Assembly: GCF_026162365.1 (NCBI RefSeq)
Contig: NZ_JAOANW010000005.1
Span: forward strand, 62,001 to 126,000
Length of the DNA stretch: 64,000 bases
Reading direction: 5' to 3'
From: Nitratireductor luteus
GTDB lineage: Bacteria; Pseudomonadota; Alphaproteobacteria; Rhizobiales; Rhizobiaceae
Shown: positions 18,043 to 51,919 of the stretch, one piece after another
Position numbering within the stretch: position 1 is the stretch's first letter
Layout of the letters: every line of letters begins with the position of its first letter
Made by a program: the position numbers and the translations under genes
The notes under the pieces: model-generated
Told to the model about the DNA's origin: nothing
The model's input: the letters and a program-made list of their open reading frames with translations, nothing else
Databases searched by the model: none

Positions 18043-18075
18043 GCTGTCCTGCCCCGGAGACCGGGGCAGGACAGC
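18043..18075 (-). promoter_or_regulatory. Intercistronic GC hairpin after dctP (transporter 2)
   Basis: Perfect 15-bp arms GCTGTCCTGCCCCGG (18043-18057) and CCGGGGCAGGACAGC (18061-18075) around a 3-base AGA loop, lying between dctP (upstream on the minus strand) and dctQ. A very stable stem in the same relative place as in the other transporter operons here. Confidence 0.65.
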
Positions 18076-24073: not shown

Positions 24074-24212
24074 TGGAAAGCCCCTGATTCAAAGGCAGAA
24101 AAGCCGAGATCGACCCCAGTTCATCTCACCGGCTGTCAACAATCGAGGCGGCAATCATTCTGGGACAGGTTGTGTGTAGCGCGGCCCGTCTTTGAAGCAG
24201 GGAGGCTTCACA

Positions 24213-36215: not shown

Positions 36216-37502
36216 TCAAAGGCGCTCGAGCAGTGCTGCGATGTCGAGGAGGTACATCTGCCGGCTGCCTTCATGCACCGAATCGATGCAGACGGCCCGA
36301 TTGTCCCGGCTCCAGCGTGGGTGCAGGTCGCAGCGGTTGTGCTTGCCCAGATCCGCGGGAGTGTAGAAGGTATCCAGATCGTAGCGCACCTCCTTCTCGC
36401 AGTCGAAGAGGAACAGCGTGCGTTCGTTCGTCTCGGCGTCGGGATAAGTGTCGGACAGCATCCAGCGCCCGTTCCGGCCATAGGTCATGTGCCCGTTTTC
36501 CGTGAGGATGCCGTTTCCCACAACGCGCACGTCGCCCGTCCGGTCGTTGTAGAGTTGGTAGTGAATTTCGCCTTCATGCGGCCCCCAGACGATGACCTCA
36601 TCGTCTGACTTCCAGAGGGGGTGGGAAATCTGCCACTCTGATTTCTCGTAGTCGAAGGTGCCGTGGGCACTCGGGTCGAAATCCTTCTCAAGCTGGGGCA
36701 GGGGATGGTCCGTGTCTTCCAGCAGGCGCAGGCCGGTGCCATCACCATTGATGGTGAACAGCCGATGCAGGTAGCAGAACTCGTCGTCCGGCCGCTCTGT
36801 CCAGCGATGGATGAACAGGAAGCGGGTGCCGGAGGGGTTCACCTCCATATGGGTGATCCAGTGCATCGCCTTGTCCATGGAAGGCACACGCTCGAATTCG
36901 AAGAGGCGGCGCAGGGAACATATGAGCTCGGTCTTGCCGGTTTCGATTTCCATGCGCCAGATGCCATCATCGTCCGGGGCGAGCGGCAGGTCGGGTTCGG
37001 CATGCGTGGCCGGATAGCCGATGGTGCGGTGCGTCTTGATGAAACGCGAATAGTTGATCGCCAGGGCAAAGCGGCCATCGGGCGCCATGATGTAGATGGG
37101 CGCGGGGAGATCGCGGCTTTCGCCGGTCGCAGGATCCACCACCCGTGAGCGGAAATCGGGATAGATGTTGTCCGGCCCCGGCGCTGTCGTTGCGCGGGTA
37201 TTGTAGATGACTTGGCCCGTATCGCCCAGCCACTGCAATTGACAGCCCATCTGCCAGTTCCAGGCGGTGGTTTCGCCAAGCTGGTGCCAGCGGTCGCCGT
37301 CGGTGAGATCGAAAAAGCCTACCTCCGCCACTTCACGGCCAGTCAGGTCGCCGGTGAAAAGCGGCGTGCGGTTGCCCAGAAGCCGGGCGTCGCCGGGACC
37401 GAAATTGGTCTTGTTGTAGTAGCCGAAAAAGCTGTGGAGGCTGCGGTCGCCCACGCGACGGATCGGCACCTCGTTGGATACGTCGATGATCTTGTCAGTC
37501 AT
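36216..37502 (-). CDS. Beta-propeller protein related to oligogalacturonide lyase
   Basis: A 428-residue protein without signal peptide, built of repeated WD/TolB-like blades. Histidine-bearing segments WITHMEVNPSG, QISHPLWKSDD and HNRCDLHPRWSRDNRAVCID resemble the metal and catalytic histidines of oligogalacturonate lyases (Ogl). Known Ogl enzymes beta-eliminate unsaturated digalacturonate in the cytosol. No other pectin gene is present, and an aminotransferase and an SDR lie directly upstream in the same operon, so the substrate may be a different acidic sugar or amino-acid derivative. Family assignment is fair, function open. Confidence 0.65.
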   Translation of the reverse strand: MTDKIIDVSNEVPIRRVGDRSLHSFFGYYNKTNFGPGDARLLGNRTPLFTGDLTGREVAEVGFFDLTDGDRWHQLGETTAWNWQMGCQLQWLGDTGQVIYNTRATTAPGPDNIYPDFRSRVVDPATGESRDLPAPIYIMAPDGRFALAINYSRFIKTHRTIGYPATHAEPDLPLAPDDDGIWRMEIETGKTELICSLRRLFEFERVPSMDKAMHWITHMEVNPSGTRFLFIHRWTERPDDEFCYLHRLFTINGDGTGLRLLEDTDHPLPQLEKDFDPSAHGTFDYEKSEWQISHPLWKSDDEVIVWGPHEGEIHYQLYNDRTGDVRVVGNGILTENGHMTYGRNGRWMLSDTYPDAETNERTLFLFDCEKEVRYDLDTFYTPADLGKHNRCDLHPRWSRDNRAVCIDSVHEGSRQMYLLDIAALLERL

Positions 37503-37531: not shown

Positions 37532-38725
37532 TCAGGCGAGAGCGGCCAGGAATCGGTGCATCCGCGTCATGGCGGTTTCGATGATGTCTTCCGAGGTGGC
37601 GAAAGACATGCGGAAGAAGCCCGGCTGCAGGAAAGCGGCACCGGGAATCGCGGCGATCTCCGCATATTCAAGCAGCGCTTCGCAGAAACTCACATCGTCT
37701 GTGATGATCATGCCGTCGATGGACTTGCCGTAGGTGGCCCGAATGTCCGCGAATATGTAGAAGGCACCCTGCGGCGGGATATAGCGCAGATAGGGCATCC
37801 GGCCGAGCCGCGCCGTGATTAGATTCTTTCGCTTCTGGTACTGCGCGGCCATCGCGTCGATCTGGTCCTGCCCGTTTCGCAGGCCGCTGAGCGCGGCCCA
37901 TTGGGCGATTGAGTTGGGGCCGGACGTGTTGTGCCCCTGAAGCATGGTCATCCGTTTAATCAGTTCCGCCGGCCCGATGGCGAAGCCGATGCGCCAGCCG
38001 GTCATGGCGAGGCTTTTAGATGCGCCGTTGATGTGCAGCATCCGGTCCCGCGCCGCGGGGTAGAAATTCAGTGGATTGCGGTATGTAAGCCCGTCGAAGA
38101 CGATCCGTTCATAGATTTCGTCGTTGATGATCGTCAGGTCGTGCTCGATCGCGAGTTCGCAAAGACCGACCACGAGGTCGTCACTATAGATGCGGCCGGA
38201 AGGATTGTTGGGCGCATTGAGCATGATTATTCGCGTGCGGTCGGTGATCGCCGCGCGGATATCGTCGAGCGAGAAGTCGAGCGTCTGCGGGTCGGTTTCG
38301 ATGATCACCGGCTTGGCGTCGCAAAAGCGAACCTGCTCGACATAGCTCACAAAGGCCGGGGCGATTATGATCGCCTCGTCACCGGGGTTGAGCAGGGCGG
38401 CGCAGGCTTCGAAGAGCAAGGGCTTGCCCCCTGCGCCGATCATCACCTCCCGCGCCTCGTAATCCAGGTTGAACCGGGTTTTGTAATAGCGCGCAACCTC
38501 CTCCCGCAGTTCCAGCAGGCCTGCGGCGGGAGTATAGAAGGTATGGCCCGCGTCCAGCGCCTGGCGGGCGGCGTCCATCACTGCGGATGGCGAAACGAAG
38601 TCGGGCTCGCCGGTGGAAAGCGAAATGATGTCGCGGCCCTGCCGTCGCAGGTCAGCCGCTTTCTCGGATACCACACGGGTGGCGGCAGGCTGCAGGCGAG
38701 TCAGCCGGTCTGAAATTCGCACGAT
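37532..38725 (-). CDS. PLP-dependent aminotransferase, class I (aspartate aminotransferase-like)
   Basis: About 397 residues of the AspC/alpha-aminotransferase branch. ISLSTGEPDFVSP near residue 35, MLNAPNNPSGRIYSDD near 165 and the PLP lysine in HINGASKSLAMTGWRIGFA near 235 are all present. Translation probably starts at the GTG encoding VRISDRLTRLQPAATRVV; six more residues are possible (frame open to 38743). It sits between the SDR (upstream) and the beta-propeller gene, 29 bases from the latter. Substrate unknown. Confidence 0.88.
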   Translation of the reverse strand: MVRISDRLTRLQPAATRVVSEKAADLRRQGRDIISLSTGEPDFVSPSAVMDAARQALDAGHTFYTPAAGLLELREEVARYYKTRFNLDYEAREVMIGAGGKPLLFEACAALLNPGDEAIIIAPAFVSYVEQVRFCDAKPVIIETDPQTLDFSLDDIRAAITDRTRIIMLNAPNNPSGRIYSDDLVVGLCELAIEHDLTIINDEIYERIVFDGLTYRNPLNFYPAARDRMLHINGASKSLAMTGWRIGFAIGPAELIKRMTMLQGHNTSGPNSIAQWAALSGLRNGQDQIDAMAAQYQKRKNLITARLGRMPYLRYIPPQGAFYIFADIRATYGKSIDGMIITDDVSFCEALLEYAEIAAIPGAAFLQPGFFRMSFATSEDIIETAMTRMHRFLAALA

Positions 38726-38747
38726 GCTCTGTCCTTTCCTCACCGCA

Positions 38748-39488
38748 TCACGTGGCCTGACCGCCGTTGACGCCGATCATTTGGCCGTTGACGAACCGGC
38801 TGGCGGGTGATGCGAGGAAGGTGACCGCCGCGGCCACGTCTTCCGGATCGCCCATGAAGCCTGCGGGGATCGACGCCAGCTTTTTCGGGTCCGTTCCGTC
38901 TCGTCCCTCGGTCAGGGTCTGGCCCGGGGAAACCGCGTTGGCAGTGATGCCGTGCGGCCCGAACTCTGTGGCGAGCGCCTTGGTCAGACCCCATATCCCG
39001 TGCTTTGCGGCAGAGATCGGCGCACCTTCGAAGTAGCCCTTGATCGCCTTCATTCCGGTCATGCTGATGATCCGGCCCCAGCCCTTGTCCACCATGCCGG
39101 GCAGGAAGGCCTGCATGGTCCGGAAGGCGGCGGTAAGGCTTGTGTCGACGACGGAATGCCAGTCGCTCTCGTCCATTTCCAGGAACGGCTTGTGCGGCCG
39201 GATGGCTGCATTATTCACGAGGATGTCTATCGTGCCGAACCGGTCGAGCGCCGCCTTCGACATGGCCGCGATATCCTCCGCTCGGCCCATGTCCCCCATG
39301 ACGATCAGGCTTTCGGTGCCCTGCGCGTGAACCAGCCCGGCAGTATCCTCACAGGCTTGGCGGTTGCTCGTGCCGTTGATCACCACATTGGCCCCGAGGC
39401 CTGCAAGCTGCACGGCGACGGCGCGCCCGATGTTTCTTCCCGATCCGGAGATGAAGGCGGTTTTGCCCGCGAGCGGTCTGTCGGTCAT
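38748..39488 (-). CDS. Atypical short-chain dehydrogenase/reductase lacking the catalytic Tyr
   Basis: A 246-residue SDR fold: TAFISGSGRNIGRAVAVQLAG (cofactor loop), DILVNNAAIRP and the C-terminal NAVSPGQTLTEG and FVNGQMIGVNGGQ are normal. The active site is not. Aligned to Ser-x12-Tyr-x3-Lys, the tyrosine position is I158 in GAPISAAKHG and the serine position is about G145, while K162 is kept. Such changes remove the usual proton relay, so it may reduce a special substrate, use another residue (Y152 is close), or be non-catalytic. First gene of the minus operon facing the 39649-39680 operator. Confidence 0.82.
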   Translation of the reverse strand: MTDRPLAGKTAFISGSGRNIGRAVAVQLAGLGANVVINGTSNRQACEDTAGLVHAQGTESLIVMGDMGRAEDIAAMSKAALDRFGTIDILVNNAAIRPHKPFLEMDESDWHSVVDTSLTAAFRTMQAFLPGMVDKGWGRIISMTGMKAIKGYFEGAPISAAKHGIWGLTKALATEFGPHGITANAVSPGQTLTEGRDGTDPKKLASIPAGFMGDPEDVAAAVTFLASPASRFVNGQMIGVNGGQAT

Positions 39489-39648
39489 GCCACGTCCTAT
39501 TCTGTTGTCTCTGGCCAGCCACGTTCCGCACGCGCAGCCGTGGCGCGCGCACACGCCGCCCTCACGCCGCGCAATCCTGGCGCGGTGACTGCAGAGATCC
39601 GGGACGTGAAAGGTCCTCCTAACCCAGGAAGATGGAGTGGACCGGAAA

Positions 39649-39680
39649 GATTGTCAACAGAGTGAAAACTGTTGACAATC
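39649..39680. promoter_or_regulatory. Operator palindrome with outward -35 elements, between SDR operon and GntR-tct operon
   Basis: Perfect 12-bp arms GATTGTCAACAG (39649-39660) and CTGTTGACAATC (39669-39680) with an 8-base spacer. Each arm contains TTGACA reading outwards: plus strand at 39672-39677, minus strand at 39657-39652. One symmetric site can therefore overlap the -35 boxes of both divergent promoters. The same TGTCAACAG/CTGTTGACA half-sites recur at 45402-45425. FCD-type GntR proteins bind sites of this kind, and the adjacent GntR is the obvious candidate. Confidence 0.75.
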
Positions 39681-39707
39681 CGAAAATGAGACGTTCTTTT
39701 AGCGGGC

Positions 39708-40382
39708 ATGGAAATCTCGAACGACACCCAGGCCTTGGTTTCTGCACGCCGCGAGAGGTCGCTGACCACCATTGTGCGTGACAGGCTCGAACAGATGATC
39801 CTCCAGGGCGAGCTGGGGGCGGGCACGCGCCTTAACGAGCAGGCGCTGTCAAAGGTGCTTGGCGTCAGCCGCGGTCCGATCCGCGAGGCTGCGCGCCTGC
39901 TGGAGCGCGATGGGCTTGTCGCTTCGGTCGCCAACCAGGGCGCCTTCGTGCGGCAGCTGTCGATCGAGGAGGCGCTCGAACTCTACGATCTGCGCGCGGT
40001 CATTGCGGGCTATGCCTGTGCCCAGCTCGCTGAACGGGCGAGCGCCGTGGAAAAGCGTGAGATGCGCGAGATGGTGGAAGAGATGGACCGCTGCATCACG
40101 ACAGAGGAAGAGGCCCGCTACTTCGAACTCAACCTCGCCTTTCATGACCGCATCGCGGAACTGTCGGGGGGGAGGCGCACCCTGGAGCTGTATACCTCAC
40201 TGGGGAAGGAAGTGCGGCTGCTGCGGCGGCGGGTATTGCGGGGAACGGATTCATTGCGCTTCTCGAACGAAGAGCACAAGCAGATCGTCGCGGCAATCGA
40301 AGACGGCGATGCTCCGGCTGCCCGCCAGGCGGCCGAACAGCATCACATCAATGGAAAACGGCGCTGGCTCGATACGCTCTAG
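39708..40382 (+). CDS. GntR-family regulator, FCD subfamily (tct operon)
   Basis: A 224-residue regulator: winged helix LTTIVRDRLEQMILQGELGA with LGVSRGPIREAARLLER, then an FCD domain (NLAFHDRIAELSGGRRTLEL). It is the first gene after the operator and leads into tctCBA. If TTGACA at 39672 is the -35, the start of transcription would fall almost on the ATG, implying a leaderless or very short-leader message. It resembles the GntR gene at 44650 in domain layout and motif spelling (SRGPIREA), so the two may share operators. Confidence 0.9.
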   Translation: MEISNDTQALVSARRERSLTTIVRDRLEQMILQGELGAGTRLNEQALSKVLGVSRGPIREAARLLERDGLVASVANQGAFVRQLSIEEALELYDLRAVIAGYACAQLAERASAVEKREMREMVEEMDRCITTEEEARYFELNLAFHDRIAELSGGRRTLELYTSLGKEVRLLRRRVLRGTDSLRFSNEEHKQIVAAIEDGDAPAARQAAEQHHINGKRRWLDTL

Positions 40383-40473
40383 GCCTGTTGTCGAACCATC
40401 GTGTGTCCGGTTTCGGCCGGGTGGACGAATTGGAGAAGGCGGGGAGAGGACCGCGCACAAATGGGAGGAAAGC

Positions 40474-41460
40474 ATGAAACTTATCAGCACGCTTATTGGA
40501 ACGGGCCTGCGTGGGACCGGATTGGCCGCCGGTTGCGTTCTCGGTCTCATCGCCGGCAGTCAGGCGCTGGCGCAGGATTATCCTAGCAAGGATCTCGATT
40601 GGACGATCGCCTTCGGGCCGGGCGGCGGAAACGACATCATGGCCCGCACCCTGATCGATATCATCCAGAAATACGACCTGTATGGGCAGGATATCAGGGC
40701 GGAAAACCGGGCCGGCGGCAGCGGCGCGGTCGGCTGGGGCTACGTGTATTCCAAGGCTGGCAGTGGGTACGACATTACCACCACCTCGGGCAGCCTCATA
40801 ACCACGCCTTTGCAGGCCGACACTCCGTGGAAGGCTTCCGATTTCGTACCGCTGGCATTGCTGGCGACCGATGACCTCGCCATCATGGTGAGCGGCAATT
40901 CCGAATGGGACACCATCGAGGAGTTTATCGAATCCGCAAAGGAGACGCCGCCGACACTCGCTGGCACTGGCACCGTGAACGTGGACTTCATCGTGCCTAC
41001 GCTTTTCGCGGAAAAGGCGGGTTTCGAGTTCGAATACGTGTCGTTCAACTCGATGGCCGACATGCAGACCGCGCTGCTCTCGGGAGCCGTCGATGCCATG
41101 GTCGGCAATCCGGGCGAAATCGTCGGCCTCGTGGAGTCCGGCGACATGAAGGCACTGATCTACAGCGGCGAGACCACCCCGCCGGCGCTCGGCGATGTCC
41201 CGACCATGGATGAGAAGGGCTGGGGCGTTGGGGTGTCCATGCCGCGCGGCCTGATCCTCGCCCCCGATGCGCCGCAGGAGGCGGTCGACTTCTGGCGCGC
41301 TACGGTCGAGAAGATCGTGGAGACCCCGGAATGGGAAAAGTATATCGAAACGAATCTCCTGACCGAGAACATCAAGTATGGCGATGACTTCGGGATCTTC
41401 TTGAAGAATGCCCAGGATGGGTTCGAAAAGGTGTTGCGCGCGCAGGGCGCAATCAAGTGA
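40474..41460 (+). CDS. tctC: Tripartite tricarboxylate transporter substrate-binding protein (TctC family)
   Basis: A 328-residue periplasmic protein. The signal peptide runs to about residue 33 (LALAQ), and is followed by DLDWTIAFGPGGGNDIMART, the carboxylate-binding beta-strand-to-turn motif of TctC proteins. GGGAGGAAAG precedes ATG 40474, fixing the start inside a longer open frame that runs through the GntR gene. It delivers a carboxylate (citrate-like compounds in known systems) to TctAB. A GC hairpin follows it before tctB. Confidence 0.92.
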   Translation: MKLISTLIGTGLRGTGLAAGCVLGLIAGSQALAQDYPSKDLDWTIAFGPGGGNDIMARTLIDIIQKYDLYGQDIRAENRAGGSGAVGWGYVYSKAGSGYDITTTSGSLITTPLQADTPWKASDFVPLALLATDDLAIMVSGNSEWDTIEEFIESAKETPPTLAGTGTVNVDFIVPTLFAEKAGFEFEYVSFNSMADMQTALLSGAVDAMVGNPGEIVGLVESGDMKALIYSGETTPPALGDVPTMDEKGWGVGVSMPRGLILAPDAPQEAVDFWRATVEKIVETPEWEKYIETNLLTENIKYGDDFGIFLKNAQDGFEKVLRAQGAIK

Positions 41461-41474
41461 AGCAGACCTGACAG

Positions 41475-41508
41475 GGGGGCGCCGGACGAATCCCGTCCGG
41501 CGGCCCCC
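41475..41508 (+). promoter_or_regulatory. Intercistronic GC hairpin after tctC
   Basis: CGCCGGACG (41480-41488) pairs with CGTCCGGCG (41494-41502), extended by GGGGG/CCCCC around a one-base bulge, loop AATCC. It lies between tctC and the tctB ribosome-binding site. Same placement as the hairpins after the dctP and aapJ genes in this window. Confidence 0.6.
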
Positions 41509-41520
41509 GTGGAGCCTGAT

Positions 41521-41973
41521 ATGCGTATCATCTTCTTCGTCGTGATCCTCGCTGCGGGGCTCATGTATTCCTATGTGGCTTTCACAAACCTGGACTTTCT
41601 GACGACGACCGGACGGCTGGGGCCGGGGTTCTTCCCCCGGGGCATCGGGGTCTTGATGGTGGTCTTCACTCTCTGGAGCATGACCGCCGAATTGCAGCCA
41701 AGTGCGGCTGAGGGACGCTCCGACGCCGGCGGTTCCGCCGGCCAGGTGGCGCTAATAATGGGTTTTGGCTTGGCTTATGTGCTGTCGCTGGGCTTGGTCG
41801 GCGGTATTCCGGCCACGGTAATCTTCCTTTTTATCACCTTGTCGGTGCTCAACCGGAATCGTCTTCTACAGAACGGGCTGGTCGCCTTGCTGGTGCCTGC
41901 CGCGATCTATGTGCTCTTCGACAGGCTGCTGAACGCCGCGATACCCGAGGGCGTACTACCGCTCCCCTTCTGA
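41521..41973 (+). CDS. tctB: Tripartite tricarboxylate transporter small membrane protein (TctB family)
   Basis: A 150-residue protein with about four hydrophobic segments, usual for TctB. GGAG six bases before the ATG sets the start at 41521. GRLGPGFFPRGIGVLMVV is the conserved TctB loop. It forms the small membrane subunit with TctA. Confidence 0.9.
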   Translation: MRIIFFVVILAAGLMYSYVAFTNLDFLTTTGRLGPGFFPRGIGVLMVVFTLWSMTAELQPSAAEGRSDAGGSAGQVALIMGFGLAYVLSLGLVGGIPATVIFLFITLSVLNRNRLLQNGLVALLVPAAIYVLFDRLLNAAIPEGVLPLPF

Positions 41974-42022
41974 AACGATCCGGGCGCCGGTGCGCAACCC
42001 GATATACTGGAGCTCTCCCTTT

Positions 42023-43570
42023 ATGGATCTTTTTTCTGACCTTTGGATGGGATTGTCCGTCGCGATCAGCCCCCTCAATCTGCTGTATCTGCTGATTGGT
42101 GCGATGGTGGGTATGATCGTTGGCATCATTCCCGGCTTCGGCCCTTCGGCCGGTCTGGCGATCCTCCTGCCCGTCACCTTTGGAATGGACCCGATCGGAG
42201 CCGTGATGATGCTCGCCGCGATCTATTACGGGGCGATGTATGGCGGGACGATCACGTCGATCCTGCTGAACACACCGGGCGAATCCGCGACAGTCGCCAG
42301 TACATTTGACGGCTATCCGTTGGCCCAGAACGGCCGGGCCGGTCCCGCGCTGGTGATGCAGGCGGTCGCCTCATTTACGGGGGGTACCGTGGGCGTCATC
42401 CTGATCACCCTTTTGGCTCCGGCATTTTCCCACGTCGCCCGCAACTTCGGCCCGCCGGAGTATTTCCTGCTGGCGCTTCTGGGGATGCTGACCCTGATCG
42501 TTATGATCGGAGAGAATTGGAAGCTCGGAGTGCTCTCCGCCCTTGTCGGTTTCGCGCTCGGCACCGTCGGTGTGGACCTCGAAACGGGCCAGAGCCGCTA
42601 TACATTCGGCTTCGCGGAACTGATCGGCGGCATTCACTTCATTCCGATTGCCATCGGCCTCTTCGGTTTGGGCGAGCTCTACTTTGCCTTCCATCAGGGT
42701 CTTCATCGCATCGGTTCCGGCTCTATCGCGCCGTACGATCGGAAAAAGGGCTTCTGGCCCGACCTAGCCGACTGGGCAGACACGAAGTTCACGCTGGTGC
42801 GCGGATCCATCCTGGGCTTCGTGGTGGGTGTGATCCCCGGCGCAGGGGCGACCATCGCCTCGCTCATGGCTTATTCCTTCGAGCGCTCCTTCTCAAAGCG
42901 TCCGAAAAACTTCGGCAAGGGCGAGATGGCGGGTCTCGTGGCGCCGGAAGCTGCGAACAACGCCGCTTCCTCCGGCGCGATGATCCCGCTTTTGACGCTG
43001 GGGATTCCCGGCTCGGCCTCCACCGCGGTTCTCCTGGCAGCCTTTCTTCTTTGGGGAATGCGTCCGGGGCCGCTCTTCATGGAGCAGAATCCGGAATTTG
43101 CCTGGGGGCTGATCGCCTCGATGTATCTCGGCAACATGGCGCTCCTGGCGCTCAATATCTTCGCGATCCCGCTCTTCGTGCAGATCATCCGGGTGCCATA
43201 CCGGATCCTCGCGCCCATCGTCTTGGTCATCTGCACGCTCGGGACATTTAGCGTCTCCAGCTCGATGATCGAGGTCTACCTGATGTTCACCGCCGGGATC
43301 GTTGGCTTCTTTATGCGGCTCTACGGCTTCTCACCCGCAGCGCTGGTACTGGGGCTGGTACTGGGGCCGTTGGCGGAGGAGGCGCTGCGTCAGACGCTGA
43401 CCATATCGCGCGGATCCTTCTGGATCTTCTTGGAACGCAATGGGTCGATCGGGATCATCGTGACTACGGCGGTCCTGCTTGTCGTCCTGCCGCTTATGCA
43501 ACGCATTGGGCGTAGAGCAGGCGCCTCGAAGCAGGGCAGTGTCAGCGAGGCTGAGGATGCAGGGGTCTGA
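42023..43570 (+). CDS. tctA: Tripartite tricarboxylate transporter large permease (TctA family)
   Basis: A 515-residue polytopic permease of normal TctA length. The signatures GMIVGIIPGFGPSAGLAILLP near residue 28 and GFVVGVIPGAGATIASLMAY near residue 270 are the paired GxxPGxG motifs of the family, and NTPGESATVASTFDGYP lies near residue 82. It is the transport channel for the TctC ligand. It overlaps the start of the next dehydrogenase gene by 14 bases, suggesting coupled translation. Confidence 0.94.
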   Translation: MDLFSDLWMGLSVAISPLNLLYLLIGAMVGMIVGIIPGFGPSAGLAILLPVTFGMDPIGAVMMLAAIYYGAMYGGTITSILLNTPGESATVASTFDGYPLAQNGRAGPALVMQAVASFTGGTVGVILITLLAPAFSHVARNFGPPEYFLLALLGMLTLIVMIGENWKLGVLSALVGFALGTVGVDLETGQSRYTFGFAELIGGIHFIPIAIGLFGLGELYFAFHQGLHRIGSGSIAPYDRKKGFWPDLADWADTKFTLVRGSILGFVVGVIPGAGATIASLMAYSFERSFSKRPKNFGKGEMAGLVAPEAANNAASSGAMIPLLTLGIPGSASTAVLLAAFLLWGMRPGPLFMEQNPEFAWGLIASMYLGNMALLALNIFAIPLFVQIIRVPYRILAPIVLVICTLGTFSVSSSMIEVYLMFTAGIVGFFMRLYGFSPAALVLGLVLGPLAEEALRQTLTISRGSFWIFLERNGSIGIIVTTAVLLVVLPLMQRIGRRAGASKQGSVSEAEDAGV

Positions 43571-44618
43571 GGTCCGGATCCCTCAAGGCGCGCTGGAGGG
43601 CTTGGCCGCCCGTGCCTTCTCCGCCCTCGGTGTGCCCGATGTGGAGGCGGAGCAGGCGGCAGCGATACTCGTGCTGGCGGAGATGATGGGGATCTCCACA
43701 CACGGTATCGCCCGCGTCGCTACGTATGGGGAACGACTTAAGTCAGGCGGAATAGACGCACGGGCCCGAATCGAAAGCACGAGGGTTGCGCCGGCGCTTG
43801 TCCAATTGGAGGGCGGCAACGGCCTGGGGCCGGCGGTTGGCGCGCGAGCACTCGCCACCGCAATGGATTCTGCGTTGGAGACCGGGGTGGGCGTGACGCT
43901 TTGCAGGGGTTCCAATCATTTCGGAGCCGTGGCGCCCTACTGTTGGCAGGCTTGCGAGGCCGGGTTCGCCGTGATTGCAATGTCGAACACGACACCGATG
44001 ATCGCACCCACCGGCGGGCGGACTCCTGCCTTGGGGAACAATCCGATCGGGTTCGGTTTTCCCGGACCGGAAGGGCGGCATTTCATCTTCGATATGGCCA
44101 TCTCCGTCGCCGCCCGTTCCCATATCCGCCGTGCCGCGGAAGCGGGTGAGCCGATACCGGATGGCTGGGCGACGGATTCCGAGGGCCGGCCGACGCGGGA
44201 TGCGGCTGCTGCGATGCGCGGGATGCTCCACGGGATCGGAGGGCACAAGGGCTACGGTCTCGCCCTCGCGGTCGACATGCTGGCTGGGGTTCTGTCCGGG
44301 GCGGCTTTTCTTACGGACGTAGCCGATCTGGCGCGTGAGCCGGAGGCTTCCCAGAATCTTGGGCAGGCCTTTATCCTGATCGACGTATCGCGCTTGCTGG
44401 ATGCGGCGGAGCTTGCCGCACGGATGGACGGCGCCAGGGATATGCTCACCTCTGTGCCGCCTGTCGATCCGGATAGTCCCGTGCGTCTTCCCGGCGACAG
44501 GGCACTGGCGCGGATGCGTCGAGCGCGGACCGAGGGCATCGCGGTGCCCGACCGGATCCTCGACGATTTGCGGGCGCTCGCATGTGGCAAAGAGGAGACG
44601 CCAAAACCGCTGGATTGA
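43557..44618 (+). CDS. Ldh_2-family malate/L-lactate (sulfolactate/ureidoglycolate)-type dehydrogenase
   Basis: A 353-residue NAD(P)-dependent dehydrogenase of the type that is not a Rossmann-fold LDH. Motifs are ILVLAEMMGISTHGIARVATY near residue 41 (catalytic histidine in STHG), CRGSNHFGAVAPYC near 120 and GHKGYGLALAVDMLAGVLSG near 230. Members oxidise malate, L-lactate, 3-sulfolactate, ureidoglycolate or 2,3-diketo-sugar acids. ATG 43557, with GAGG next to it, lies inside the end of tctA. Following a tricarboxylate transporter it probably oxidises a 2-hydroxy-dicarboxylate or tricarboxylate. Confidence 0.9.
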   Translation: MQGSEVRIPQGALEGLAARAFSALGVPDVEAEQAAAILVLAEMMGISTHGIARVATYGERLKSGGIDARARIESTRVAPALVQLEGGNGLGPAVGARALATAMDSALETGVGVTLCRGSNHFGAVAPYCWQACEAGFAVIAMSNTTPMIAPTGGRTPALGNNPIGFGFPGPEGRHFIFDMAISVAARSHIRRAAEAGEPIPDGWATDSEGRPTRDAAAAMRGMLHGIGGHKGYGLALAVDMLAGVLSGAAFLTDVADLAREPEASQNLGQAFILIDVSRLLDAAELAARMDGARDMLTSVPPVDPDSPVRLPGDRALARMRRARTEGIAVPDRILDDLRALACGKEETPKPLD

Positions 44619-44649
44619 CCTTCTCGGAAGTCCGGTTAAAACCGATGCG

Positions 44650-45333
44650 ATGAGGCAGTCCAACGACCCTTACGCCGGACTATCCAGCGATACGATACGC
44701 CCGATCCAGACCTTGAGCCGGATCGCTTTGGAGGCGATCGAGCGCCTCATTGCCGATGGGTCGCTCAAGTCCGGTGATCGGGTCAACGAAAGTCAGCTCG
44801 CGGAGATCCTCGGCATCAGCCGAGGCCCCATCCGAGAAGCCGTTCACAGTCTGGAACAGATGGGGCTTCTTGTCAGCGTCACGAACAAGGGCATGTTCGT
44901 CCGGGCGCTCAGCCTGGAAGAGGCGCAGCACCTGTATGAACTCCGCTCGGCCCTCGCTGGGCTGGCCGGTCGGCTGATCGCCGTCCGTGGGACCGAGGAG
45001 GATATCTCTCCCCTTGTCGCTCTCGTCGACGAGATGGATGTCGCGGTGTCGAAGGACGACGCCGAAACCTACTTCCGGCTGAACCTTGATTTTCACGAAA
45101 AGCTGATCGGCGCGGCCGGTAATCCAGCGCTTCAAACGACCTACCAACGTATCGTAAAACAGCTTTTGCTGATGCGGCGCCGTGGACTGGTGCAGGCCCA
45201 CAACATCCGTATTTCGAATGAAGAGCACCGTGTGATCGTTGACGCGCTACGCATGCGCGACGCCGATGCAGCCGAAACGGCCATGCGCATCCACGTGGAG
45301 AACGGTTTCAAGCGGATTGCTGACGCAGACTGA
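44650..45333 (+). CDS. GntR-family regulator, FCD subfamily (second in tct cluster)
   Basis: A 227-residue regulator with winged helix ALEAIERLIADGSLKSGDRV then LGISRGPIREAVHSLEQ, followed by an FCD domain (NLDFHEKLIGAAGNPALQTT). ATG 44650 is chosen over a longer open frame that runs back through the dehydrogenase gene. It ends the tctCBA operon and sits 68 bases before a 24-base palindrome that controls the next operon. Together with the GntR at 39708 it forms a likely regulator pair for the TGTCAACAG regulon. Confidence 0.88.
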   Translation: MRQSNDPYAGLSSDTIRPIQTLSRIALEAIERLIADGSLKSGDRVNESQLAEILGISRGPIREAVHSLEQMGLLVSVTNKGMFVRALSLEEAQHLYELRSALAGLAGRLIAVRGTEEDISPLVALVDEMDVAVSKDDAETYFRLNLDFHEKLIGAAGNPALQTTYQRIVKQLLLMRRRGLVQAHNIRISNEEHRVIVDALRMRDADAAETAMRIHVENGFKRIADAD

Positions 45334-45401
45334 TCGCTGCAAGGTGGGCTGCCGTGGAAGGCGTTGTGATCTACTGTACGGAGCAGTGGGTGCTTGAGAA
45401 T

Positions 45402-45447
45402 CTGTCAACAGTTAACTGTTGACAGTTAGGGATGGACTCATCATTAT
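45402..45447 (+). promoter_or_regulatory. 24-bp perfect operator palindrome plus promoter for the AbrB-PrpD-LigJ operon
   Basis: CTGTCAACAG TTAA CTGTTGACAG (45402-45425) is fully symmetric. It repeats the half-sites of the 39649-39680 operator, with a 4-base rather than 8-base centre. TTGACA at 45419-45424 and CATTAT at 45442-45447 are 17 bases apart, a good promoter whose -35 lies inside the operator. Strong evidence for repression by a GntR protein of the adjacent cluster. Confidence 0.75.
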
Positions 45448-45547: not shown

Positions 45548-46621
45548 ATGATTGCCACCTTGCGTGACAAGCCGGGGACGTACGGTTTCGCCGTCATCCT
45601 GGTGCCAGCTGCAATCGGTGGAGCGATCTGGTCCGCATCGGGTTTGCCTCTGGGTTGGCTGATGGGGGCCGCGCTCGTCACCGGGGCCTATGCAATGATC
45701 GGTCGTCCGGTCGCTGTCCCGAAGCTGCCGCATCGTGCAGGGCTGGTCATGATTGGCTCAGGGGTCGGGCTGGTCCTGACGCCGGAAATCGCCGCCCGCA
45801 TGACAATGTGGGCGCCAATGATGTTGCTGGCCGCAGGGCTGGGCATTGCGATGGCTGCGCTCTGCGCTCCGCTGCTGGCTCGCGCGGGACGGGTAAGCGT
45901 TGCGACGGCCTATTTCTCCTTGCTGCCTGGCGGCATCATTGAAATGGCGCGTGTGGGGGAGGACTTTGGCGCCGACCGCACGACGATCGCCGCACTGCAT
46001 ACGGTGCGCCTGGGGCTCGTGGTGGGGTTGCTGCCGCTGGCGCTACTCAGTTTCTTGCCCCATGACGACCCGGCGACCATTGCTGGAACGTCGACCGCCG
46101 GCGCGCTGCAGATGGCCGGGGCGTTGGCTGTCGGAGCCCTCGGTGGCTGGATCGGCTCGAAAATCGGGCTGCCTGCAGCCTGGCTGCTGGGGGCTGTAGT
46201 CGCCGTGGGCGCGGTCGCTGCGACCGGCGCCATCGGCGGGCAGTTGCACCCTGTGCTGGTGATATTGGCACAGATCATCGTGGGGCTGGCGCTTGGCGCG
46301 CGCTTCGAGCGCCGACGGCTGACTTCGATTCCGCGAGCGATGGCGGCCGGCCTGGCGACGCTGGCGCTCATCATGGTCGCGATGGCGGCCTTTGCCGCGC
46401 TGGCAGGAGTGCTGATGCCGCAAGATCTGCCTTCGCTGATCCTCGCTTTTTCCATCGGCGGCATGGCCGAAATGGTTCTGACCGCCAAGGTGCTGCATCA
46501 GGATATAGCGCTCGTTGCCGCTTTTCAGACGGTGCGCGGAGTGACTGTCAACGCGGTGGCTGGTGCCGTCTGGCAACGGCTCGGTCGCAAGTTTTTCAAG
46601 ACTGACATGAGAGGAGACTGA
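45548..46621 (+). CDS. AbrB-family membrane protein (ammonia monooxygenase-type permease), copy 1
   Basis: About 357 residues with ten or so hydrophobic helices in two similar halves; glycine-rich segments such as GGAIWSASGLPLGWLMGAAL and GGWIGSKIGLPAAWLLGAVV mark the internal duplication. Despite the family name it has no DNA-binding domain; it is a presumed transporter or permease. GGAG before ATG 45548 supports the start; a TTG at 45524 is also in frame. First gene of a three-gene operon with a PrpD protein and a LigJ-like hydratase, so possibly an uptake or efflux route for the organic acid they process. Confidence 0.85.
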   Translation: MIATLRDKPGTYGFAVILVPAAIGGAIWSASGLPLGWLMGAALVTGAYAMIGRPVAVPKLPHRAGLVMIGSGVGLVLTPEIAARMTMWAPMMLLAAGLGIAMAALCAPLLARAGRVSVATAYFSLLPGGIIEMARVGEDFGADRTTIAALHTVRLGLVVGLLPLALLSFLPHDDPATIAGTSTAGALQMAGALAVGALGGWIGSKIGLPAAWLLGAVVAVGAVAATGAIGGQLHPVLVILAQIIVGLALGARFERRRLTSIPRAMAAGLATLALIMVAMAAFAALAGVLMPQDLPSLILAFSIGGMAEMVLTAKVLHQDIALVAAFQTVRGVTVNAVAGAVWQRLGRKFFKTDMRGD

Positions 46622-46625: not shown

Positions 46626-48053
46626 GTGTCTGCCCAGAACAACGCTTATGCCGAAATGCCGGGGAATACGCAGGTCACGGAGGATACCGCCCGCTTCATT
46701 GAAACGGTAACTTTCCATGACATTCCCGAGGAAGCGATCCGCATCGGCAAGCGCTGCATGATCGACGCCTTCGGGCTCTACGTCGCCGGGTCGGAAGAGC
46801 AATCGGTCCGGATACTTGCCGACGAGGCGCGGGAGTTCGGCGGGCGCGAAGATGCCCGACTTCTCGGCGACGCGCGAATGGTTCCCGCGCCCATAGCCGC
46901 ACGGGTTCTCGGAACCGCGGGCCACGCCCATGACTGGGACGACAGCCAGGTGAGCCACGATCCCGCTCATATCTATGGGCTTTTGACCCATCCCACGATC
47001 CCGCCGCTTACAGCAGCGCTGGTCATGGCACAGAAGATGAAGCCCGTTTCGGGCCGCGACTTCATGCTGGCCTTCCTCACTGGGTTTGAGGTCGAGTGCA
47101 AGATCTCCGAATGGATGCGCCCAAGACATTACATGCAGGGAATGCATTCCAGCGGCACCGTGGGCCATTTTGGCGCCTACGCGGCGGCGGCCAAGCTGTT
47201 GGGGCTAACTGGCGAAAAGCTGCGCGCTGGCCTTGGGATCGCGGCCAGTTTCGCCGCCGGCATCCGCTGCAACTTCGGCACGATGACGAAACCGCTTCAC
47301 GTCGGCCGCGCGGCCGAAAATGGTGTGACCGCCGCGCTGCTGGCGGCGCGAGGCTACACTGCGGATCCGGAGGCGCTCGATGGTCCATGGGGCTTCATGG
47401 CCGTGCAGGGCGGCGGCGCCAGCCATGAGAAACTCTCGCAGGGTTTCGGGAAGACCTGGACCATCGTAGAGCCGGGCGTATCGATCAAACCCTATCCCTG
47501 CGGCGTGCTGACCCATCCGACAATCGACCTGATGCTGCGGCTGGTGACGGAGGCCGACCTCGCCCCTGAGGATATCGAAGCCGTGATCGTCCATGCCGGG
47601 ACCAACATCCTGAAGCCGATCCGTTACCCCATCGCGAAAAACCACCTGCAAGCCAAATTCTCGCTTCCCGCCGCTCTCGCGATGGTCGCCCTCGAGCGGA
47701 AAGCAGGAAAACGCGAGTTCTCCGATGCATTCGTCGGCGGCGCGGCGATGCAGGATATGCAGCGCCGCATCTCCACCGAGTTCGATCCGGAAATCGAAGC
47801 CAAGGGTTTCGACAAGATGCGCTCGCGCATCACGATCCGCATGAAATCGGGCGGCGAGGTCGCAGGCTGGGCCGACGAGCGTTACCGTGGCGGACCCGAG
47901 AACCCGCTGACAGACGAGGAAGTCGAGGCCAAGCTGCGCTCCTGCTGCGAAGGCGTGCTTGACGAGGCGGGTCAGGACAAGCTGATCGCGCGGACCTGGG
48001 CCGTGCTCGACATGGACGACGCCGGCGCGATCGCTGACCTGCTCCAAGCTTGA
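46626..48053 (+). CDS. MmgE/PrpD family protein
   Basis: A 475-residue protein with the all-helical plus lid architecture of 2-methylcitrate dehydratase and cis-aconitate decarboxylase. Family marks are HAHDWDDSQVSHDPAHI near residue 98 and GTMTKPLHVGRAAENGVTAALLAARG near 218, then the C-terminal lid domain. Members dehydrate or decarboxylate citrate-like tricarboxylates. GTG start five bases after the AbrB stop, with GAGGAGA ahead. Together with the tct transporter and the LigJ-like hydratase it suggests handling of a branched tricarboxylic acid. Confidence 0.9.
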   Translation: MSAQNNAYAEMPGNTQVTEDTARFIETVTFHDIPEEAIRIGKRCMIDAFGLYVAGSEEQSVRILADEAREFGGREDARLLGDARMVPAPIAARVLGTAGHAHDWDDSQVSHDPAHIYGLLTHPTIPPLTAALVMAQKMKPVSGRDFMLAFLTGFEVECKISEWMRPRHYMQGMHSSGTVGHFGAYAAAAKLLGLTGEKLRAGLGIAASFAAGIRCNFGTMTKPLHVGRAAENGVTAALLAARGYTADPEALDGPWGFMAVQGGGASHEKLSQGFGKTWTIVEPGVSIKPYPCGVLTHPTIDLMLRLVTEADLAPEDIEAVIVHAGTNILKPIRYPIAKNHLQAKFSLPAALAMVALERKAGKREFSDAFVGGAAMQDMQRRISTEFDPEIEAKGFDKMRSRITIRMKSGGEVAGWADERYRGGPENPLTDEEVEAKLRSCCEGVLDEAGQDKLIARTWAVLDMDDAGAIADLLQA

Positions 48054-48076: not shown

Positions 48077-49090
48077 ATGATCATCGATTGTCACGGGCAT
48101 TACACCACCGCGCCCGGCCAGCTTGTCGCCTGGCGCAACACCCAGATCGATGCGAAAGGGGACCGCTCGCGCATGGCCCAGCCCGACGGGCCGGTGATCT
48201 CCGACGACGTGATACGCGAGAGTCTCCTCGGAGCGCAAATCCGGACCCAGCAGGAAAGGGGGATCGACCTCACAATCTTTTCCCCACGCGCCGCGGCCAT
48301 GGGGCAGCACATCGGCGATGAAGCTATGTCGCAGCAGTGGAGCCGGATCTGCAACGACCTGATCCGACGGGTCTGCGACCTCTTTCCGGATCATTTCGCG
48401 CCGGTCTGCCAACTGCCCCAGTCGCCCGGCTGCAAGCCGGAAGGCGTCGTGCCGGAACTGCGTCGCTGCGTGGAGGAGATGGGGTTCGTCGGATGCAATC
48501 TTAACCCTGACCCTGCAGGCGGCTATTGGACCGATCCGCCGATGACCGACCCGTGGTGGTTTCCCCTCTACGAGGTGCTGGAGGATCTCGACGTGCCCGC
48601 TATGATCCACGTCAGCGGGTCCTGCAACCCAAACTTCCAATACAGCGGCGCCCACTACATTAATGCCGACACATCGGTCTTCATGCAGATCCTCGACAGC
48701 GATCTCTTCGAGCGCTTTCCTCGGCTGAAGTTCATCATCCCGCATGGTGGCGGGGCGGTGCCTTTCCACTGGGGACGTTATCGCGGCCTCGCGATGGACC
48801 GTGGCCGCAAGGAGCCGGGGCAGATGATGGGGCAGAACATGTTCTTCGATACGTGCGTCTACCACCAGCCGGGCATCAACCTGATGACCGAGGTCGTGCC
48901 GGTGGACAACGTACATTTCGCTTCCGAAACATATGGGGCCGTGCGGGCGGTCGATCCGGAAACCGGCCACCAGTTCGATGGCACGAAACGCTATATCGAA
49001 GCGAGCCCGCACCTTACCGATGCGGATCGCGAGAAGATCTTCGAAGGCAACGCCCGGCGGGTCTTCACCTGGCTGAAACTGCCGGCCTGA
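48077..49090 (+). CDS. Amidohydrolase-family hydratase, 4-oxalomesaconate hydratase (LigJ)-like
   Basis: A 337-residue TIM-barrel metal enzyme. The start IIDCHGHYTTAPGQLVAWRN has the metal ligands H6 and H8. Further motifs are NLNPDPAGGYWTDPPMTDPWWF, MIHVSGSCNPNFQYSGAHYI, KFIIPHGGGAVPFHWGRYRG, ASETYGAVRAVD and a final EGNARRVFTWL. This order and spelling closely follow LigJ, which hydrates 4-oxalomesaconate in the protocatechuate 4,5-cleavage pathway. No ring-cleavage genes are present here, so it may act on a related unsaturated tricarboxylate. GGGGAGGAAG before ATG 48077 fixes the start. Confidence 0.85.
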   Translation: MIIDCHGHYTTAPGQLVAWRNTQIDAKGDRSRMAQPDGPVISDDVIRESLLGAQIRTQQERGIDLTIFSPRAAAMGQHIGDEAMSQQWSRICNDLIRRVCDLFPDHFAPVCQLPQSPGCKPEGVVPELRRCVEEMGFVGCNLNPDPAGGYWTDPPMTDPWWFPLYEVLEDLDVPAMIHVSGSCNPNFQYSGAHYINADTSVFMQILDSDLFERFPRLKFIIPHGGGAVPFHWGRYRGLAMDRGRKEPGQMMGQNMFFDTCVYHQPGINLMTEVVPVDNVHFASETYGAVRAVDPETGHQFDGTKRYIEASPHLTDADREKIFEGNARRVFTWLKLPA

Positions 49091-49093
49091 CCT

Positions 49094-50065
49094 TCAGCCG
49101 AGCGCTCCGGGATTGATCAGGTTGATCGGTGCGCCTTTGCAAAAGGCGTCCACCTGTTGATAGATGTCGCTGAACTGCATATCGAGTTCGTCCTCCGTGA
49201 CGAACCCGATATGCGGTGTGGGGATGATGTTGGGATGGGCGATCTGCGGGTCTTTGGGGTCGGTTACCGGTTCACCGCGGAATACATCGACAGCAGCGCG
49301 GCCCGGCCGCCCCGCATCGAGAGCGGCGATCAGCGCGCCATTCTCCACCAGACCCGCTCGCGCGGTATTGATGAAAAGCGCGTCGGGCCGCATCCGCGCA
49401 AGGTCGGCACGCGTCACGATCCCGCGTGTTTCCGGGGTCAGGCGCAGATGGGCCGATACGATGTCCGGTTCGGAGAAGAAGGTCTCACGGCTCTTCGCCA
49501 CCGTCTCTCCATCCGCGCTTGCGCGTGCGCGACCGTCCTCGGACGCCCACCACACGACCTCCATTCCGAACGAGCGGGCAAAGCCCGCCACGGCGCGCGC
49601 AATCCGTCCGTACCCATATAGCCCCAGGGTCCGACCGCGCAGGCTGCGCCCGAAACCCGCCTGCCAGTGGCCGGCGCGAACGGAGGCGATCTGCTCCGGC
49701 AGGTTCCGCATTGCCGCGAGCATCAGGGCAAACGTCAGTTCCGCCGCACCGATGGAGAAGCTGTCCGAATGCAAGTTGGTGCAAAAGGCGATTCCGCGTT
49801 TGGTCAGCGCTGGCACATCGACATGCGGATATGTGCCCCGCATTGACACGAGCCGCAGGTCCGGGAGCTTTTCGATAAGGCTTTCGGTAATAGCTGTCCG
49901 GTCTCGAAACAACACCAGGGCCTCCGCGTCCTCGACGCGGCGGGCCAGCGTCTCCTCGTCAGGGGCGCGGTCCGTCCAGACCGTTACATCGTGGTCGGCA
50001 AGCATGCCGAAACTGGGGAGATGGCGCAATGTGTCGTGATAGTCGTCGAGGATATGGACCTTCAT
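49094..50065 (-). CDS. D-2-hydroxyacid dehydrogenase (NAD-dependent)
   Basis: A 323-residue enzyme of the phosphoglycerate/glyoxylate reductase family. The Rossmann loop is LGLYGYGRIARAVAGFARSFG near residue 148. Catalytic residues sit in INTARAGLVENGALI (Arg), DVFRGEPV (Glu) and IIPTPHIGF (His). The start at 50065 overlaps the AbrB stop by four bases (ATGA); the frame remains open far upstream but is non-coding there. It interconverts a 2-oxoacid and a D-2-hydroxyacid. It is convergent with the LigJ-like gene, leaving only three bases between stops. Confidence 0.9.
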   Translation of the reverse strand: MKVHILDDYHDTLRHLPSFGMLADHDVTVWTDRAPDEETLARRVEDAEALVLFRDRTAITESLIEKLPDLRLVSMRGTYPHVDVPALTKRGIAFCTNLHSDSFSIGAAELTFALMLAAMRNLPEQIASVRAGHWQAGFGRSLRGRTLGLYGYGRIARAVAGFARSFGMEVVWWASEDGRARASADGETVAKSRETFFSEPDIVSAHLRLTPETRGIVTRADLARMRPDALFINTARAGLVENGALIAALDAGRPGRAAVDVFRGEPVTDPKDPQIAHPNIIPTPHIGFVTEDELDMQFSDIYQQVDAFCKGAPINLINPGALG

Positions 50066-51168
50066 TCTCTGTCTCCCCGTTTGGCGGCGGCGTATTTTGA
50101 CAATCCGATCATCGCGCCTATCAAGGGGGCTCCTGCGATAACCAACAGCACGCGCAGCAGATGGTGGACCACAACAAAGCCAAGGTCCGCACCGGTAACG
50201 ATGGCCAATACGGTCATTTCGGCTTGGCCTCCCGGCGCGAAGGCGAGGAAGCCTTCCAGCGGATTCGCAAACCCGAGATGCACCACGATCCCGGTCACGA
50301 TCAGCGCCAGTACGGCCAGGATCGCGACGTAGAAGGTCCCCGCCAGCACGTCGCGGCGGATCTCGTGCAGGGTCACGCCGACATAGCCTACGCCGATCCC
50401 CATCCCGATAAAGAACTGCGCCGCCTGGATCGCCACGGCGGGAGGGCGCGCGTGAATCAGGCCGGTAAGCGACAGCGCGCCGGCAAGGATCAGCGGCCCG
50501 ATGATCGTCGCTCCGAAGAGCCCAACACGCTCCCCTCCCTTCCAGCCGACAATTGCCGCGGCAAACATCAGCGCCAACTCGATCACCGGAACTTCCGCCA
50601 CCGGGGCCCCCGTGGGCTGATCCAGCGGCGCGCCGAATCCGGTCGAGATGATCAAAGGTGCGATGGTCACGATCAGCAGGATCCGCGTCGCATGGATGAG
50701 CGACAGCGCCCGCAGGTTCGCGCCGGCCGCCTGTCCAAAAGCGATCATGTCCTGCAGGCCGCCCGGCATCGCGGAGTAATAGGAGGTGGCTAGGTCGTAT
50801 TTCAGCAACCGGTGAAAATACGGAATTCCCACTACGCCGATTACTGCGACGTAGAGCGGGATGAAGGCGATGGAGCCCATCATCTGCGGCAGCCGGGCCA
50901 CGACCTCCGGCGTTAGAGATGCACCGACAGCCACGCCCAGCACTGTCCTTGACAGTTTCGATGCAACCGGCAGGGTTGAAAGCGGCACGCGGATGAGCGC
51001 CGCAACGAGGCAGGCTGTCATGGCGCCGAACAGAAAGGGCAGGGGCAGATCGAGCGACCAGAAAAGTGTCGCACCAATTGCAGCCAAAGCAAGCGTCAGC
51101 AGCCGGTGGAGATGCTTTGCTCGGGATGATGAGGACACAGCAGCCTTGGAGGTGGTATCTTGACCCAT
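50062..51168 (-). CDS. AbrB-family membrane protein, copy 2
   Basis: A 368-residue polytopic membrane protein paralogous in layout to the one at 45548. It has glycine/proline-rich helices FWSLDLPLPFLFGAMTACLV and YYSAMPGGLQDMIAFGQAAG (matching YFSLLPGGIIEMARVGEDFG in copy 1) and a second half ending in APGGQAEMTVLAIVTGADLG. A presumed permease, not a transcription factor. It precedes and overlaps the D-2-hydroxyacid dehydrogenase gene and is divergent from a GntR gene across 50 bases. Confidence 0.85.
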   Translation of the reverse strand: MGQDTTSKAAVSSSSRAKHLHRLLTLALAAIGATLFWSLDLPLPFLFGAMTACLVAALIRVPLSTLPVASKLSRTVLGVAVGASLTPEVVARLPQMMGSIAFIPLYVAVIGVVGIPYFHRLLKYDLATSYYSAMPGGLQDMIAFGQAAGANLRALSLIHATRILLIVTIAPLIISTGFGAPLDQPTGAPVAEVPVIELALMFAAAIVGWKGGERVGLFGATIIGPLILAGALSLTGLIHARPPAVAIQAAQFFIGMGIGVGYVGVTLHEIRRDVLAGTFYVAILAVLALIVTGIVVHLGFANPLEGFLAFAPGGQAEMTVLAIVTGADLGFVVVHHLLRVLLVIAGAPLIGAMIGLSKYAAAKRGDRE

Positions 51169-51217
51169 TGTATCCCAACGTATACTTCTGAATTCTCACT
51201 GGATGCAAGCGGTAACA
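51169..51217. promoter_or_regulatory. Divergent promoter/operator between AbrB copy 2 and GntR
   Basis: The short gap contains TTGTATCCCAACGTATAC (about 51168-51185), with GTAT elements repeated eight bases apart (51170-51173 and 51180-51183), the second within the palindrome GTATAC (51180-51185). The spacing resembles GntR-type sites. It is close to both start codons, so a bound protein would affect both genes. Confidence 0.4.
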
Positions 51218-51919
51218 ATGGGCGCAGCCAATCGGAATAAAGGGGCCGGAGAAGAACTGCAGGGGCAAGGCGCCGCCACGCAGCTTCTTGAGGACATTCG
51301 TTCCGGCCGGCTTCTGCCGGGCGCGCGCCTCCGCGAAATGGAGATCGCCACACGGCTCGGCATCAGCCGAACACCCGTGCGTGAAGCGATCCGGCGACTG
51401 GAGGCCGATGGGCTGGTCTCCTATCTGCCGCGCGTCGGCGCCGTCGTGCGGCAACTCAGCTATCCCGAGGTCATGGAACTCTATGAAATGCGTTGGGTGC
51501 TCGAAGGCACCGCAGCACGCTTGGCTGCTCGTGGCGCCTCCGGAGTAGAGATCGAGGAATTGGCAGCGATCAATGTGGACATGATCCGCGAAGGGCAGTC
51601 CCCGCAGGAACTGGTCGCGCTCAATCGCCAGTTCCACAACACGCTTATTGCCGCAGCCCGCAACCGTTACCTGGTCCGTTCGGTCCGCACGATCGAAACC
51701 ACACTGCTGATTCTCGGACCGACGACGATGGAAGACCCGTCCCGCGCCCGCGCAGCGGTAGAAGAACATCAAGCCGTGGTCGAGGCGCTGCGCATCCGGG
51801 ACGAAGCCGCCGCCGAGGCGATGATGCGCGCCCATATCGAAAGCGCACAGCGCACCAGGCTGCGGCAACTCAGGAGCCACGGTCGATTGATGGAAGCCGA
51901 CGGTCCCGATTACGTGTGA
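51218..51919 (+). CDS. GntR-family regulator, FCD subfamily
   Basis: About 233 residues from ATG 51218 (an ATG at 51203 is in frame). Winged helix ATQLLEDIRSGRLLPGARLRE, then LGISRTPVREAIRRLEADG, followed by an FCD domain (ALNRQFHNTLIAAARNRYLVR). It diverges from the AbrB/hydroxyacid dehydrogenase operon and precedes a DUF1932 dehydrogenase, and probably regulates both directions. Confidence 0.9.
   Translation: MGAANRNKGAGEELQGQGAATQLLEDIRSGRLLPGARLREMEIATRLGISRTPVREAIRRLEADGLVSYLPRVGAVVRQLSYPEVMELYEMRWVLEGTAARLAARGASGVEIEELAAINVDMIREGQSPQELVALNRQFHNTLIAAARNRYLVRSVRTIETTLLILGPTTMEDPSRARAAVEEHQAVVEALRIRDEAAAEAMMRAHIESAQRTRLRQLRSHGRLMEADGPDYV

Follow-up and report, generated by a model that had tools for sequence, protein, structure and literature searches.

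The genes and sequence features of the locus, which lies in a 64,000-nucleotide stretch of DNA (the window), are summarized in Table 1. A leftward operon led by an SDR oxidoreductase gene faces a rightward series consisting of gntR1, the tctCBA genes for a tripartite tricarboxylate transporter, an Ldh-family dehydrogenase gene and gntR2, behind which abrB, prpD and a ligJ-like gene follow. The beta-propeller-like protein of the leftward operon, which may be oligogalacturonate lyase-like, has an 82.5% identical relative in Pacificitalea. The original prediction, made from the bare sequence, had placed one inverted repeat (site 1) between the SDR-aminotransferase-beta-propeller-like operon and gntR-tctCBA, and a palindrome (site 2) ahead of the AbrB-PrpD-LigJ genes; the gene assignment confirmed this arrangement and further located the Ldh-family gene and the second gntR gene between tctA and site 2. 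Judging from the PrpD, LigJ-like and Ldh-family enzymes, the encoded functions suggest a di- or tricarboxylic acid as the substrate. Outside the cluster, a third FCD-type GntR gene (51203-51919; helix SRTPVREA, by eye) points away from another AbrB-like gene (50062-51168, minus strand), the second in the window, and from a D-2-hydroxyacid dehydrogenase gene; a Thioclava relative of that dehydrogenase (58%) sits downstream of prpD. Just past the cluster, an IS3-type transposase-like frame (53137-53922) was recognized by eye.

Table 1. Genes, operator sites and predicted promoters of the cluster
Feature	Coordinates	Strand	Remarks
Beta-propeller-like protein	36216..37502	-	0 Pfam families
Class I/II aminotransferase	37532..38743	-	Pfam PF00155
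SDR oxidoreductase, leading gene of leftward operon	38748..39491	-	Pfam PF13561
SDR operon promoter, predicted	39629..39657	-	TTGACA 39652-39657, 17 bp, CATCTT 39629-39634
Site 1	39649..39680	.	Inverted repeat, 12-bp arms; two NTGTNNACAN boxes, 39651-39660 and 39669-39678
gntR1 promoter, predicted	39672..39700	+	TTGACA 39672-39677, 17 bp, weak TCTTTT 39695-39700
gntR1, FCD-GntR regulator, 224 aa	39708..40382	+	Pfam PF00392, PF07729
tctC (40474-41460), tctB (41521-41973), tctA (42023-43570)	40474..43570	+	Pfam PF03401, PF07331, PF01970
Ldh-family dehydrogenase (malate/L-sulfolactate/ureidoglycolate-type)	43560..44618	+	
gntR2, FCD-GntR regulator, 227 aa	44650..45333	+	Pfam PF00392, PF07729
Site 2	45402..45425	.	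24-bp palindrome; two CTGTYRACAG boxes, 45402-45411 and 45416-45425
abrB-prpD-ligJ promoter, predicted	45419..45447	+	TTGACA 45419-45424, 17 bp, CATTAT 45442-45447
AbrB-family protein, probable membrane permease	45548..46621	+	PF05145
MmgE/PrpD-family enzyme	46626..48053	+	Nearest solved structures: IDS-epimerase, cis-aconitate decarboxylase
4-oxalomesaconate hydratase (LigJ)-like amidohydrolase	48077..49090	+	445 bits to 2gwg; Pfam PF04909

As originally described, site 1 (GATTGTCAACAG-AGTGAAAA-CTGTTGACAATC) consists of perfect 12-bp arms around an 8-base centre, and site 2 (CTGTCAACAGTTAACTGTTGACAG) is a perfect 24-bp palindrome with a 4-base centre; the TGTCAACAG/CTGTTGACA arms are common to both, while the outer bases differ. 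Each site contains two 10-bp boxes, the centres of which are 18 bp apart in site 1 and 14 bp apart in site 2. These sequences are rare. TGTCAACAG occurs five times in the window: four copies lie in the two sites and the fifth, at 28409, within a coding frame. Over 100 shuffles of the window, the mean count was 0.31 and none exceeded 2. Perfect inverted repeats with arms of at least 12 bp and loops of at most 12 bases number five in the window, the two sites among them, compared with one in 2 of 20 shuffled windows and none in the other 18. No perfect inverted repeat in the window is stronger than that at 18043-18075, which has 15-bp G+C-rich arms and a 3-base loop and is possibly a terminator. 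A terminator reading of site 2 appears unlikely, no T-run being present after its palindrome.

The genome scan for an N4-8 pair that accompanied the original prediction was also carried out. Throughout the whole genome (4,916,682 bases), the pattern TGTCAACAGN{0,12}CTGTTGACA matched sites 1 and 2 only, and the N4 and N8 pair patterns each recovered their own site alone, even when up to three mismatches were allowed. These pair scans of the 4.92 Mb, by which a wider regulon was sought, yielded no additional pair; one further scan, which likewise added no pair, was not exhaustive, missing site 1 with its differing outer bases. The window also holds 13 lone TGTNNACA words, when the four within the two sites are included. 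Among these, CTGTCAACAA at 24133-24142 is intergenic and follows a TRAP-like DctP gene among genes of a TRAP-like transporter, and CTGTAGACAG at 61449-61458 lies outside the cluster.

The form of the boxes was compared with known operators of the family. According to Suvorova 2015 (PMC4494728), the short palindromes recognized by FCD-GntR dimers are built around a GT-N2/3-AC core. The FadR-subfamily consensus TKGT/ACMA with a 2-nt gap, given there for GntR, HpxS, HypR, MdcY, PrpR and UxuR, is similar to CTGTYRACAG. Atu1419 of Agrobacterium fabrum, a VanR-group FCD-GntR repressor that ranks third by sequence among the solved relatives (E 1.2e-22, profile search), was crystallized on the 10-mer ATGTATACAT with one dimer per 10-mer (PMC7797058); this operator shares its TGT-N2-ACA skeleton with CTGTYRACAG, whereas the outer and central bases are A..AT..T in Atu1419 and C..YR..G here. 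On the basis of the published core and of the one dimer bound per 10-mer, the 10-bp CTGTYRACAG (general form NTGTNNACAN) is most simply read as the whole site for one FCD-GntR dimer. The CTGT-NN-ACAG pseudo-palindrome of the original prediction was thus upheld, but its designation as a half-site of one palindrome was not; the sites are better described as two complete dimer boxes, and the reading of the box as a single half-site was rejected in view of lone CTGTTGACAG-type boxes at related GntR genes. The two boxes of each site, mirrored with a CA centre followed by a TG centre, would then take two dimers side by side, and it would be chiefly the central CA/TG, together with the flanking bases, that makes the sites look mirrored.

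Both GntR1 and GntR2 scored above the cut-offs of PF00392 and PF07729, as FCD-type GntR proteins do, and in the alignment both keep the residues Glu34, Arg45 and Arg49, which contact DNA in Atu1419, as well as its metal ligands Asn137, His141, His192 and His214, while Thr46 is replaced by Gly (PMC7797058). As with the sites and predicted promoters here, Atu1419 has operators that overlap the promoter of the regulator gene itself and that of a catabolic operon, and two operators lie in a divergent region; the distance between them is 190 bp in Atu1419 against 14-18 bp here, and Atu1419 acts as a single regulator where two GntR proteins are encoded here. GntR1 and GntR2 are 40% identical, and their recognition helices (GVSRGPIREA and GISRGPIREA) differ across ten residues solely by V/I. 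Since they fall in different parts of the GntR tree, the deep forks of which are weakly supported (28/100), they are regarded as old paralogues rather than products of recent duplication.

To what extent the box recurs at other GntR genes was assessed with 30 representative homologues (70% identity clusters), the window's two genes included; 5 of 35 clusters had been left out as belonging to other phyla or Lachnospiraceae or as unusable. TGTNNACA was found within 200 bp upstream of 15 of the 30 genes, against a mean of 0.64 and a maximum of 3 in 300 shuffles; on the downstream side, 7 genes had it inside the first 200 bp (shuffle mean 0.57, maximum 4). When the window's two genes were set aside, the upstream count was 14/28. 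Among the 64 palindromes of the 3+2+3 form, TGTNNACA ranked first upstream, and it also topped the 3-base-arm palindromes with gaps of 0-6 when these were ranked by the excess of upstream over downstream counts (34 and 35 regions). CTGTYRACAG thus combines the GT-N2-AC core with recurrence at related regulator genes, as FCD-type GntR operators do. The remaining 15 genes, including the window's gntR2, lack TGTNNACA in the 200 bp upstream. Within the tree's gntR2 group, the deep support for which is weak, a TGTYRACA-type box lies just downstream of the gene in 6 of 7 rows, the seventh being a long-branch Pelagibius of unsure placement. This box precedes tctC in Thioclava (L098), G279 (L124) and G477 (L126), PrpD in Pacificitalea (L097) and G208 (L141), and AbrB in the window. 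Thioclava nitratireducens has TTGTTGACAG ahead of the gntR2-like gene and CTGTTGACAG between that gene and tctC, and G279 has AACTGTTGACAGTT at both places. A mirrored CA/TG box pair with centres 20 bp apart lies ahead of prpD (61% identical) in Phyllobacterium zundukense. The relatives in the gntR2 group may carry further GntR genes elsewhere in the genome.

Conservation of the paired sites was examined in 394 genomes sampled from the family, of which 8, three of them Chelativorans, contain TGTCAACA-N4..16-TGTTGACA. In the Chelativorans trio (the window's genome, C. alearense and C. salis), both sites occur at orthologous places with the same spacings of 18 and 14 bp; the boxes of site 1 are identical and site 2 matches at 24/24 positions in the two other species. 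Eight genomes of the genus were sampled, and it is these three that also hold a GntR1 orthologue; the other 5 have neither the TGTCAACA/TGTTGACA pair nor a GntR homologue above 39% identity at E 1e-30. A plasmid of Pacificitalea manganoxidans (Rhodobacterales) has a cluster that is almost the same except that AbrB is absent (GntR1 81%, GntR2 68% and PrpD 87% identical). Its site 1 retains the boxes at 16/16 positions with the same spacing, between flanks that match at only 21/58 and 11/27, and its site 2 is altered to GTGTCAACAG-N8-CTGTGAACAG, two boxes with centres 18 bp apart, as compared by eye and by scan because MAFFT misaligned that site. The sites are therefore present at orthologous operons, where their absence would have spoken against the original prediction.

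Among the five non-orthologous family genomes with the paired motif, a GntR gene adjoins the motif in two (L003, L006) and not in three. At L003:819-849 and L006:1501-1521, the TGTCAACA/TGTTGACA pair lies between divergent FCD-like GntR and transporter genes; the recognition helices of these GntR proteins differ from GxSRGPIREA. A wider contig scan reached mostly Lachnospiraceae GntR proteins (30-36% identity) and found no convincing box pair. Beta-propeller relatives beside tct genes (L135, L137, L139 and L140), the GntR neighbours of which are more distant (29-32%), have no box between those genes, so it is Chelativorans and Pacificitalea alone that place the SDR operon in the regulon.

TTGACA is the -35 consensus of sigma-70 promoters. 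Such hexamers, reading outwards, had been noted in the arms of site 1 and are indeed present; a further outward TTGACA, with CATTAT 17 bp beyond, lies in the right arm of site 2. Three promoters, for the SDR operon, gntR1 and abrB-prpD-ligJ, were predicted from these -35/-10 pairs (Table 1). The SDR arrangement TTGACA-N17-CATCTT is also found in C. salis and C. alearense, with CATTCT in Pacificitalea, and the -10-like hexamer of abrB is CATTAT in C. salis and CATTGT in C. alearense. Of the 15 representative GntR genes that have an upstream box, 7 show TGTNNACA beginning 36-39 bp before the start codon, a spacing seen at 39672-39708 and in L079, L104, L107, L112, L016 and L014. A box with TTGACA at this distance from the ATG would set transcription off at or beside that codon, so leaderless, self-repressed gntR mRNAs are predicted; the gntR1 transcript would start at or beside the ATG at 39708.

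That the arms are conserved as -35 hexamers alone, with no repressor needed, would account for the TTGACA in each box, for the -10-like hexamer 17 bp off at 3 of the 4 box edges and for the recurrent distance to the start codon (7/15 genes), but we consider it highly improbable. In the three Chelativorans no recognizable -10 goes with the left box of site 2, yet this box is kept at 10/10 positions beside 29 bases that match at 6/29 in C. alearense and 24/29 in C. salis; neither the symmetric outer C...G nor the paired layout is a feature of promoters; and in Pacificitalea the CTGTGAACAG box of site 2 stands between a -35-like TTGACG and a -10-like CATTAC, so that conservation of the box goes beyond that of the -35. 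It is barely conceivable that the boxes serve a regulator other than an FCD-GntR protein, since an upstream box accompanies half of the related GntR genes (15 of 30) and the CTGTYRACAG form fits published FCD operators, even though three of the five unrelated family matches to the paired motif have no GntR gene beside them and, by eye, a MarR-like and a TetR-like gene adjoin the L007 and L009 matches, one each.

The division of labour between the two proteins deserves more weight. In this alternative, a single GntR protein would bind both sites, or site 1 would belong to GntR1 and site 2 to GntR2, the likeness of the boxes reflecting common ancestry. Separate ownership would suit the position of gntR1 directly after site 1 and of a box directly after gntR2-like genes (6/7 group rows), the different pair spacing of the two sites in Chelativorans (18 against 14 bp), and the diverged effector domains of proteins 40% identical overall. 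We nevertheless regard this alternative as unlikely, given that the 8-mer boxes are the same, that the recognition helices are only V/I apart within GxSRGPIREA, and that both Pacificitalea sites have the 18-bp spacing. Since boxes and recognition helices agree, both GntR proteins likely cross-bind sites 1 and 2.

We thus consider it probable that GntR1 and GntR2 repress three promoters via a common paired-box operator type, as predicted by comparison of the sequences. The boxes of site 1 would carry the -35 hexamers of back-to-back promoters, for the SDR operon to the left and for gntR1-tctCBA-ldh-gntR2 to the right, and the right box of site 2 would carry that of abrB-prpD-ligJ. Without substrate, GntR1 and/or GntR2 would sit on the boxes and keep RNA polymerase from the three promoters, their own included; binding of the imported acid, or of an intermediate, to the FCD domain would free the repressors from the boxes. 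The allotment of each protein to each site, the box common to both and the inducer belong to this proposed scheme. Comparative genomics, namely boxes kept across genera while flanks diverge and a box beside gntR, tct and prpD elsewhere, makes a common local regulon under a GntR-type operator a well-supported prediction; in this respect the original prediction stood, but in place of its single GntR control, two GntR proteins would act on paired complete operators.

In the available portion of Suvorova 2015 (PMC4494728), divergons with double sites have paired sites at a roughly constant distance, read as cooperative control of both operons. Site 1 is divergon-like in that a regulator gene belongs to divergent operons with paired sites, and its 18-bp spacing is constant in the few genomes concerned, three Chelativorans and Pacificitalea; CTGTYRACAG with a tct-prpD module is not named in that portion. 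Within the open-access literature searched, no paper joined CTGTYRACAG or the tct/prpD gene set with GntR. Corynebacterium glutamicum likewise has two paralogous GntR regulators for one gene set, but its GntR1 and GntR2 are described as functionally redundant gluconate regulators (PMC2230225), unlike the pair here, whose 40% identity and diverged effector domains make distinct inducers possible. In an extended form, two FCD repressors, only distantly related and each with an inducer of its own, would share one double operator, and tetramers, if formed as in Atu1419, would bridge sites 1 and 2 (~5.7 kb) and loop the tct operon; we hold this quite unlikely, and if true, the uptake and breakdown genes would open on a combined signal only.

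The paired switch common to these two neighbouring clusters, for uptake and breakdown of an organic acid, is a clear case of gene control of an ordinary bacterial kind. PrpD relatives elsewhere accompany gntR2-like genes and boxes, and beta-propeller relatives occur without the box; based on this difference, the cluster appears to combine a PrpD-gntR2 module with a tct-SDR-beta-propeller module, both using a single type of box. Such a joining of two modules under one operator type would offer a testable case of catabolic cluster assembly. More broadly, CTGTYRACAG would be the operator for a widespread, uncharacterized group of FCD-GntR proteins beside Tct transporters and MmgE/PrpD enzymes, and the motif would allow regulons, and then substrates, to be predicted in other genomes.
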